From Bacteroidales bacterium (lineage in GTDB: Bacteria; Bacteroidota; Bacteroidia; Bacteroidales; P3): DNA of 64,000 bases. The position numbers and the translations under genes are program-made. Location: the NCBI GenBank assembly GCA_017934545.1, contig JAGBJI010000002.1, forward strand, positions 124,001 through 188,000, in the 5' to 3' direction. Of the stretch, positions 1,656 through 60,745 are shown in pieces (positions within the stretch are counted from its first letter, which is position 1; the number at the start of each line of letters is the position of its first letter). The notes beneath the pieces were generated by a model that saw only the letters and a list, made by a program, of their open reading frames with translations, was not told where the DNA came from and did no database searches.

Positions 1656-1770
1656 TTTTTGCCCTTTCTGAAAACAATCTCAAAAAAAATAGGTTTTTTC
1701 GGGTAAAAAATCAGATTTTTTGCATTAAAAAACCTATTTTTTTTCAAACTCTTTTCTGAAAGGGCAAAAT
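1656..1770. repeat. 22-bp-phased A/T-tract repeat, copy 1 (subfamily A)
   Basis: Three units A(n)-word-T(n) with words TAGG, TCAGA and CCTA, unit centres about 21.5 bp apart (6-A tracts begin 1684, 1705, 1727). The first and third words are reverse complements. Inverted end modules 1661-1674 (GCCCTTTCTGAAAA) and 1752-1765 enclose the units. It lies between two divergent promoters. Confidence 0.9.
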
Positions 1771-1903
1771 TGTTTTGCGAAAAAGCAATGTTTATTCAGC
1801 GAAAGGCTAAAAAAATGAGAAGTATTTTTGAAAATAATATTGCCTTTTGTTGCGGTGATGTATAAAAGCAAGTAATAAAAAAGGAGAAATAAAAACACGG
1901 ATT

Positions 1904-1933
1904 TTTGTATATGAAAAAAAATAGTTAACTTTG
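1904..1933 (+). promoter_or_regulatory. Bacteroidota-type promoter of the M16 peptidase
   Basis: TTTG at 1904-1907, an 18-bp spacer, then TAACTTTG at 1926-1933. The predicted start of transcription is near 1940, giving a leader of about 35 nt. Confidence 0.75.
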
Positions 1934-1976
1934 CATTTTTGTAACAGAGGAAAATAATAAAATCAAATATACAGAT

Positions 1977-59268: not shown

Positions 59269-59282
59269 GAAACACCGCAAAC

Positions 59283-60524
59283 TTGAAAAATTTATCTGAA
59301 AGTAATACGTATAACCGTTACACGTTGTCTAACGGTATACGTATTATTCATAAATATACCGATTCGCCCGTTGCACACTTGGGAATAACCATTGATGCGG
59401 GTTCAAGGGACGAAAAACCGTACGAAAACGGTATAGCCCATTTTATAGAGCATTGTATTTTCAAAGGCACGGCGACCAAACCTTACTGCCGTATATTGTC
59501 CCGCATTGACGGAGTGGGCGGGGAGTTGAACGCATACACCACCAAAGAGGAAACGGTTGTATATGCTACGTTTTTGACTTCATATTACGAACGTGCGGCT
59601 GAACTTTTGTGCGACATAACTTTTAACAGTATCTTCCCCGAAAAGGAGTTGGAGAAGGAGAAAAGTGTAGTCATAGACGAGATAAATTCGTACGAAGACT
59701 CACCGTCCGAACTTATATACGACGAGTTTGAGCAATTGGTGTTCGGGCGTACGGGTTTGGGACGTATGATATTGGGAACGCAGGACAAGGTCAGCGGTTT
59801 CAACGGGGCAATGATACGTGATTTCATTCAGAGAAATTGGTTTACTGACAGAATGGTAATATCCACCGTGGGCAATATAGATTTTGACAAGTTCGTGCGG
59901 TTGGTTCAAAAATATTTTTCCAAAGTTCCCGCCAAACTATCTGCCGACAAACGCCGTACAACCTATCATTATTACCCGAAACATGCCGTCAAAAACCGCG
60001 ATACCTACCAAGCACACGTTATGATTGGCAATATATGCTACTCCTACCGCAACAATAAATACATAGCTTTTTCTTTGCTTAACAACATATTGGGTTCCAA
60101 TGCGATGAATTCGGTGCTGAACATGCACATACGCGAAAAATACGGCAACACCTATGCAATAGAATCGTCTTATACGGCATACCGCGACAGCGGAATATTC
60201 CAAGTGTATGCAGGTTGCGAAACGCATTTTGCCGAAAAGATAACACAGTTGATTGTTAAGGAGTTGGAAACCTTTGCAAACAAACGCATAACGCAGTCTT
60301 TGCTCACTCGGGGCAAACAACAACTCAAAGGTCAGTTGGCCATTCAGTACGACAGCAACCAAAACGAGATGTTGTCAATAGGCAAAGCACTTTTGAATTT
60401 TGACAAAGCGGCAACTATTGAAGAAACATTCCGACAGATAGATGAGGTTTCGGCCAATGACATATCAGAAGTGGCGGGTGAAATATTTGTTGCCGACAAA
60501 CTATCTTCCATAATTTATATATAA
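59283..60524 (+). CDS. M16 family zinc peptidase (single-domain pair, processing-peptidase type)
   Basis: A 413-residue cytoplasmic peptidase of the processing-peptidase type (no signal peptide). The zinc motif is H53-F-I-E56-H57, with the distal Glu in KEKSVVIDEINSYEDSPSE. The start codon must be TTG at 59283, because the conserved NRYTLSNGIRIIHK comes within 11 residues and no ATG precedes it in frame after the upstream stop. It follows the SPOR gene by 14 bp. Length is about that of PqqL/PreP-like small M16 proteins. Repeat copy 14 separates it from the next, convergent gene. Confidence 0.92.
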   Translation: MKNLSESNTYNRYTLSNGIRIIHKYTDSPVAHLGITIDAGSRDEKPYENGIAHFIEHCIFKGTATKPYCRILSRIDGVGGELNAYTTKEETVVYATFLTSYYERAAELLCDITFNSIFPEKELEKEKSVVIDEINSYEDSPSELIYDEFEQLVFGRTGLGRMILGTQDKVSGFNGAMIRDFIQRNWFTDRMVISTVGNIDFDKFVRLVQKYFSKVPAKLSADKRRTTYHYYPKHAVKNRDTYQAHVMIGNICYSYRNNKYIAFSLLNNILGSNAMNSVLNMHIREKYGNTYAIESSYTAYRDSGIFQVYAGCETHFAEKITQLIVKELETFANKRITQSLLTRGKQQLKGQLAIQYDSNQNEMLSIGKALLNFDKAATIEETFRQIDEVSANDISEVAGEIFVADKLSSIIYI

Positions 60525-60608
60525 TTCCGTTGTTTACATATTCTTACGGATTATTTCCCGTTTGTGTTTTTGTGTTTTACGAAGATAAATCTTTGTTTTC
60601 TGAATGTG

Positions 60609-60745
60609 TTTTTGCCGAACGCCGCTTTATGAATTAAAAAACCAATTTTTTTACATCAAAAAAAGTGGTTTTTTGAGTGAAAAAAGCAGGTTTTTTACCC
60701 GAAAAAAAGTGGTTTTTCCGTCAGTAAAGCGGCGTTCGGCAAAAA
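60609..60745. repeat. 22-bp-phased A/T-tract repeat, copy 14 (subfamily B)
   Basis: Four units with words CCAA, GTGG, GCAGG and GTGG; A-tracts at 60636, 60658, 60680 and 60702, exactly 22 bp apart. It is bounded by a perfect 21-bp inverted repeat (60609-60629 / 60725-60745) of the GCCGAACGCCGC type at both ends. It lies between convergent genes. Confidence 0.94.

Follow-up and report, generated by a model that had tools for sequence, protein, structure and literature searches.

Intergenic arrays with a two-turn period in a Bacteroidales genome hint at an undescribed DNA-binding or chromosome-organising element

In a 64-kb stretch of a Bacteroidales genome (G000:C1:124001-188000, where G000 denotes this genome of 2.38 Mb in 14 contigs; hereafter, the window), short units composed of an A-tract, a word and a T-tract recur in many gaps between genes, and the question arises of what these arrays are. 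According to the preliminary description, the window holds fourteen copies of one phased repeat. Scanning for A6N5T6 units, with one mismatch allowed, recovered all fourteen segments (14/14). However, they do not represent a single repeat and were assigned to three classes, with seven members in class 1, five in class 2 and two in class 3. The segments are as follows (positions in the window).

1656-1770, no strand: class 1 array, core 1683-1743, three units ATAGG/TCAGA/CCTAT, with GCCC..GGGC as inverted flanks; EamA and M16 peptidase genes on either side, in divergent orientation
7419-7541, minus strand: class 3 array, four CATATG units, directional, toward an amino-acid-kinase gene and divergent from the S1-domain protein gene (7744-9504)
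12346-12450, no strand: class 1 array, core 12368-12428
15556-15705, no strand: class 1 array, core 15600-15661, flanked by cpn60 and TrkA-domain genes
22953-23068, no strand: class 1 array, core 22980-23039, flanked by HU-HIG and DUF4139 genes
26409-26547, no strand: class 2 array, core 26437-26519, four units CCACT/CCTGC, GCCG..CGGC flanks
32361-32475, no strand: class 1 array, core 32386-32447
37225-37340, no strand: class 2 array, core 37252-37312
41120-41235, no strand: class 1 array, core 41146-41206, flanked by leucyl-tRNA synthetase and Na/H exchanger genes in divergent orientation
43727-43862, no strand: class 2 array, core 43753-43834, four units, upstream of a DapB-family gene
47980-48085, plus strand: class 3 array, four CATATG units, on the same strand as both neighbour genes
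52166-52281, no strand: class 2 array, core 52192-52252
56095-56205, no strand: class 1 array, core 56121-56181
60609-60745, no strand: class 2 array, core 60636-60718, four units

All five class 2 members of the window (26409, 37225, 43727, 52166 and 60609) carry CCACT/CCTGC words, and the two class 3 members (7419-7541 and 47980-48085) belong to the CATATG family. The gene of an HU-HIG family DNA-binding protein (22407-22841) directly adjoins the class 1 array at 22953-23068. T9SS-type sorting domains are present among the encoded proteins and fit a Bacteroidales origin.

The arrays extend far beyond the window. The exact triple A6N5T6N5A6N5T6N5A6N5T6, with its 22-bp spacing, occurs 141 times in the 2.38-Mb genome, and two-unit pairs in phase were found 304 times, whereas pairs with spacers lengthened by five bases, which puts them out of phase by half a turn, were never found; these genome-wide counts include duplicated contig sequence. 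Contigs C4 and C7 (L019/L020 and L024) match over 20 kb at 99.995%, and the class 3 matches on them keep one offset, which indicates duplicated contig sequence in the assembly; L024 was therefore left out of the sample as a duplicate of L019/L020. In the 828 kb sampled, at least two phased units were present in 107 of 359 intergenic segments and at least three in 54. Fifty dinucleotide-preserving shuffles of the same 359 segments gave a mean of 0.18 segments with at least two phased units (maximum 1) and none with at least three. Shuffled AT-rich sequence thus does not give similar counts, the copies are not confined to the window, and the observation of a phased repeat is confirmed as real and as much larger than the window in which it was made. 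The mostly 22-bp unit spacing reported there was also reproduced: among pairs 19–24 bp apart, 105 are spaced at 22 bp, 42 at 23, 11 at 24, 9 at 21 and 1 at 19. None of the 111 arrays of the sample lies within a called gene according to the final gene caller (our own script, approximate), in agreement with the stated intergenic position; an earlier gene caller had placed one array, plus its duplicate-contig copy, inside a called gene.

The 111 arrays comprise 54 of class 3, 35 of class 1, 18 of class 2 and four others. Class 1 uses the words ATAGG, TCACA, TCAGA and CCACA and has mostly GCCC flanks, and class 2 uses CCACT and CCTGC with mostly GCCG flanks. They were separated by their flanks, a rule by which a few arrays bearing class 1 words fall into class 2 as well, so that ATAGG (6), TCACA (1) and TCAGA (1) appear among its 61 units. 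Both classes extend into inverted flanks, to a total of approximately 140 bp, and are mosaics built from a small vocabulary. Class 3 is directional, with four CATATG units and about 100 copies; one of its units has about 102 exact matches genome-wide, a few of them being doubled units or duplicated contigs. Since only 29 distinct words occur among 176 units, compared with 148.7 expected from composition, the words are constrained or homogenised. The spacers are freer (61 distinct among 119, 105.1 expected). Copying over short range was considered and rejected; class 1 arrays at most 20 kb apart resemble each other slightly more (0.710 for 22 pairs) than the remaining pairs do (0.686; n = 356, sd 0.048). 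Of the earlier proposal that the phasing, and not the word, is selected, the phasing itself is supported, being genome-wide in G000 and found in related genomes as well, but the restricted vocabulary speaks against a free choice of word.

Dyad symmetry characterises classes 1 and 2, whose vocabularies differ. In 28 class 1 elements, the fraction of complementary positions between the arms is 0.71 in register and 0.39–0.55 when they are slid by 1–6 bases; the symmetric consensus of the class is symmetric by construction and was excluded as evidence. Read from the outside inwards, two outer words of class 1 favour one orientation (15 TCACA vs. 4 TGTGA; 14 ATAGG vs. 2 CCTAT), as does one of class 2 (8 GCAGG vs. 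1 CCTGC). Two other outer words of class 1 show no orientation preference (TCTGA 5 vs. TCAGA 4; TGTGG 4 vs. CCACA 3). Paired inverted arms could form a hairpin in RNA or DNA and act as a terminator, a cruciform or a structured leader. The in-register complementarity agrees with such a structure, as do the strand bias of class 3, described below, and the position of its copies in tandem gaps, roughly 30–160 bp from the upstream stop. However, covariation between the arms is absent in class 1: across the 28 elements, arms of the same element pair at 0.706 and arms swapped between elements at 0.716 (p = 0.89). Since swapped arms pair as well as an element's own arms, the pairing in class 1 follows from the common dyad symmetry and not from a selected stem. 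The whole-array relation in which the third word is the reverse complement of the first is just weakly enriched (10/48, 6.3 expected, p = 0.049), no Rfam family matched the window at gathering score, and many arrays lie between divergent genes. The hairpin or cruciform reading, unsupported by the arm-swap test on class 1, was rejected as highly improbable.

The location of the arrays relative to genes was analyzed next. In the sample, 55 arrays lie between tandem genes, 38 between divergent genes, 13 between convergent genes and five at stretch ends, and neighbour gene pairs are tandem in 464 cases, divergent in 91 and convergent in 87. Per noncoding kb, there are about 1.6 arrays in divergent, 1.5 in tandem and 1.2 in convergent gaps (computed by hand for gaps of at least 150 bp, minus 140 bp per array). 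No context preference beyond the available space is claimed, because the density is similar across gap types, as random insertion would give. Class 3 is oriented with respect to transcription: of its 28 copies in tandem gaps, 25 are on the same strand as the genes, two are against it and one is unscored (25/27 scored; two-sided p = 5.6e-6). Replication direction was rejected as the cause of this bias, since by eye the orientation flips with gene direction within 100 kb of contig C10.

A motif TANNTTTG[CT], taken as a form of the Bacteroidetes -7 element, was used to place the arrays relative to promoters. It separates the array from the gene start on 42/55 sides in tandem gaps and on 61/76 in divergent gaps (103/131 together), and on array sides facing a stop codon it is present in 2/55 and 2/26 cases. 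Array-free gaps contain it as often, on 97 of 128 gene-start sides. The nearest motif to a full-length class 3 array is 18 bp away, and four of the 103 motifs are nearer than 54 bp; the distance between array and motif varies. Promoter-specific siting was therefore rejected, and the suggestion that the arrays are bending elements upstream of promoters is not supported. The arrays are located between genes, usually outside the core promoter, without demonstrated attraction to promoters.

The curvature inferred in the preliminary description from phased A-tracts was modelled using two wedge models (AA wedge and 16-step), and array-free intergenic DNA served as the reference. By end-to-end length, all 53 class 1 and class 2 arrays lie under the 5th percentile in the AA wedge model, and 44/53 do so in the 16-step model. 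Class 3 is predicted to be mildly curved, with 8–10 of 54 arrays below this percentile when the modelled segment was centred on two of the four units; after recentring, the medians were 0.88 and 0.83, still modest. The AA/TT signal has its power maximum at 11 bp for classes 1 and 2, and class 3 has it at 10.75 bp. Among related genomes of the genus, arrays predicted to be curved by the AA model make up 8/11 in G009, 7/11 in G002, 3/5 in G012, 9/23 in G007, 5/15 in G005, 2/4 in G011 and 2/2 in G004, but 1/13 in G003 (1–2/13 across the models), 1/3 in G001 and 0/2 in G008, these samples being small. Strong curvature is thus predicted for classes 1 and 2, as proposed earlier, and as a common function it fails in class 3 and in G003. 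Bending by the phased tracts could in itself be the function, with no specific protein needed, and the predictions for classes 1 and 2 together with the power peaks are in line with this. Nevertheless, the weak signal in class 3 and in three congeners, the inconstant distance to the -7-like motif and the limited vocabulary make such a static element quite improbable. As modelled, curvature is a trait of some families and not a common rule. Because strong curvature is not predicted in some congeners, the common feature appears to be the two-turn period and not A-tract bending.

Phased A-tract curved DNA and helical-period periodicity (see PMC516772, PMC3940949) likewise involve intergenic A/T tracts about 11 bp apart; the arrays described here differ in that they are separate elements, each of three or four units drawn from a fixed vocabulary, and in a period that persists in congeners without predicted curvature.

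The distribution of the two-turn period is wider than that of the words. The exact A6N5T6 triple was found in four of the genomes available for the genus (4/14), in 4 of 149 genomes of the family, all in this genus, and in 1 of 198 genomes of the order sample, namely this genome itself. The period was assessed independently of the words by self-matches in noncoding DNA at lags 15–33 in sampled stretches; the stretch sets differ somewhat between the word, self-match and curvature comparisons, and stretches consisting entirely of N (L084, L085, L099, L102) were left out, by which rule G163 was lost from the self-match. In G000, 25 self-matches were found at lag 21 and 70 at lag 22, with 6 at lag 20 and 14 at lag 23, against a background of 0.53 on average (maximum 2) at lags 15–19 and 24–33. 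Matches at lags 21/22 were detected in 10 of 13 congeners, so that the phasing claimed for the window holds at 21–22 bp in most of the genus. The counts at lags 21 and 22 were 2 + 1 in G001, 7 + 1 in G002, 7 + 1 in G003, 5 + 2 in G005, 12 + 2 in G007, 5 + 1 in G009 and 1 + 1 in G011; G004 and G008 gave one match each and G012 three, and samples of 7–8 kb from G006, G010 and G013 gave none. By eye, the words differ between most congeners: TTAGTGTTWAACACTAA occurs in G002 and G012, AAAACGAAG-type words in G001, G003 and G008, AAAACGGCGTTTTA and A7CTGT7 in G007, AAAATGGATTGCTAATCC in G009, and AAAAGACTTGATC in G011. About 16 matches to the window class 3 segment were found in G005, and the CATATG-type family is probably common to that genome.

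In other genera of the family, the picture is patchy. Lag-21/22 matches were found in six of nine sampled genomes (G014, 2; G015, 1; G016, 3; G017, 2; G021, 3; G024, 1), several of them of low complexity by eye; those in G014, G016 and G024 stand out most clearly. At L088:18047 in G024, from another genus of the family, roughly twelve 21-bp units follow one another in tandem. Among the outgroups from the order, 3 of 17 readable genomes gave single matches (G156, G171, G185). A three-unit array with 22-bp spacing at L101:880 in G171, from a different family of the order, looks real.

Comparison of orthologous positions showed both retention and turnover of arrays. In the sister species G002 and G012, which are 94.7% identical over 17 kb, the four arrays compared are all in place. 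A second block contains a G002 array that is missing from G012, and the flanks are too diverged to show a target-site duplication. At one locus all three unit words differ between the two species. In-place rewriting of words was rejected as an established explanation there, since the flank is 81% identical, a gene is inserted beside the array and both word types occur elsewhere in G002; it is equally likely that a different member of the family took the place of the array. The inserted gene (L048:9280-10287 in G002), which we take to be RhuM-like, is absent in G012, and the adjoining array and flank are more diverged than their neighbourhood. The nearby 2131-aa open frame of G002 (L048:10713-17108) has stretches about 75% identical between the sister species, in surroundings of about 90–95%. 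A wider comparison of 420-bp upstream stretches in G000, G007, G004, G012 and G013 was made by eye. Upstream of the M16 and S1-protein genes, G000 and G007 have arrays of different families, and upstream of EamA both have A-tract arrays with different words; the groES upstream array is present in G007 only, and that of TrkA in G000 only. Most upstream stretches of G004, G012 and G013 contain no array, with array-like repeats at G004 EamA, G004 S1 and G012 M16. The G012 array is located between a promoter-like motif and the M16 gene start.

Such turnover raises the question of mobility. MITEs are short elements with inverted flanks and without evident coding capacity. The arrays resemble them in these respects and in the many similar copies of class 3, and may be the cores of short mobile elements, bounded by inverted ends, which spread intergenically and are replaced by new families in each species. 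A MITE-like family is the main rival to binding arrays, even though it is itself rather unlikely. In its favour are the 51 closely similar class 3 copies compared and the abundance of exact unit matches, the inverted outer flanks of classes 1 and 2, the presence/absence difference between G002 and G012, and the change of families from species to species. On the other side, an inverted end is not general in class 3, where even a loose pattern was found in 16/51 copies on the left and 24/51 on the right; a target-site duplication was not seen; and no transposase was linked to the copies in a search that covered Y1 only. The Y1/RAYT transposase (PF01797) was detected in none of seven genomes, and the control matched in 5 of 14 known genomes. 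In addition, classes 1 and 2 are mosaics, and the arrays share a period across species and not a sequence; mobility alone leaves a 21–22-bp period across families with different words unexplained.

REP/BIME elements, which are associated with RAYT transposases, are similarly dispersed, mostly intergenic, palindromic and of high copy number, and are reported to prefer unidirectional and convergent gaps (PMC3733652). The elements studied here are two-turn arrays and not stem-loops, and in contrast to that gap preference, 38 of 111 lie between divergent genes. As to the GTAG or CGTC tag at one end of REP elements, these tetramers occur somewhere in the flanks of 15/51 class 3 copies, and by eye no fixed tag was seen in class 1 and class 3 copies, whose ends are not precisely known. 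Identity with REP elements was rejected, as neither arm covariation in class 1 nor, in the seven genomes searched, a Y1 transposase was detected. No description of arrays of this kind was found in the open-licence literature, including passages of PMC5771137 and PMC3733652.

The arrays are most simply read as binding arrays for one or more dimeric proteins, perhaps of the nucleoid type, because the same-face spacing of pseudo-palindromic intergenic units persists. The 17-bp units (A6-word-T6 in this genome) are pseudo-palindromic, so that each could accommodate a dimer, and with three to four of them two helical turns apart all sites would face the same side of the DNA. Cooperative binding of a protein might then bend or wrap some 140 bp of intergenic DNA into a complex, and in this species static curvature from the A/T tracts may contribute to it in classes 1 and 2. 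The complex could act as a boundary or nucleoid anchor, and its recognition word would drift between species while the two-turn period and the intergenic siting are kept. This explanation as a whole is favoured tentatively. It accords with the excess of in-phase pairs (304 vs. 0) and of phased segments over shuffles, with the lag-21/22 self-matches, the limited words and spacers, the dyad symmetry and the strand bias of class 3, and with the four arrays kept between the sister species. Against it, one protein must accept several words per genome, or several proteins are needed; two outer words of class 1 have no preferred orientation; and array density hardly differs between the three gap types. 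The turnover of positions at wider distance (groES and TrkA, G000 vs. G007), the array missing in G012 and the G012 array inside the M16 promoter-start gap also count against it. A boundary role gains no positional support of its own, since the -7-like motif is equally frequent in gaps that lack an array.

Iterons and other arrays of sites two turns apart are known from plasmid origins and from the ends of Mu and Tn7. They consist of sites of about 17–22 bp repeated every two turns, and the same-face spacing is found here as well. The arrays of G000 differ in their variable words and in their number, since hundreds of copies are dispersed where those systems have a single origin or element end.

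The arrays hint at an undescribed DNA-binding or chromosome-organising element. In a broader and unlikely version of the binding-array explanation, a genus-wide chromosome organiser would exist, in which a putative DNA-binding protein and its hundreds of site arrays re-evolve their word together and the two-turn geometry stays fixed. If true, it would represent drifting DNA dialects of bacteria on a conserved scaffold. Dispersed repeats of bacteria are normally known by their sequence, whereas here the sequence differs between most congeners, and the period and intergenic siting persist. If a protein reads the arrays, they would offer a direct route to the study of how a global DNA-binding specificity changes together with hundreds of its sites, and would expose a chromosome-organising element in a little-known lineage of Bacteroidales.
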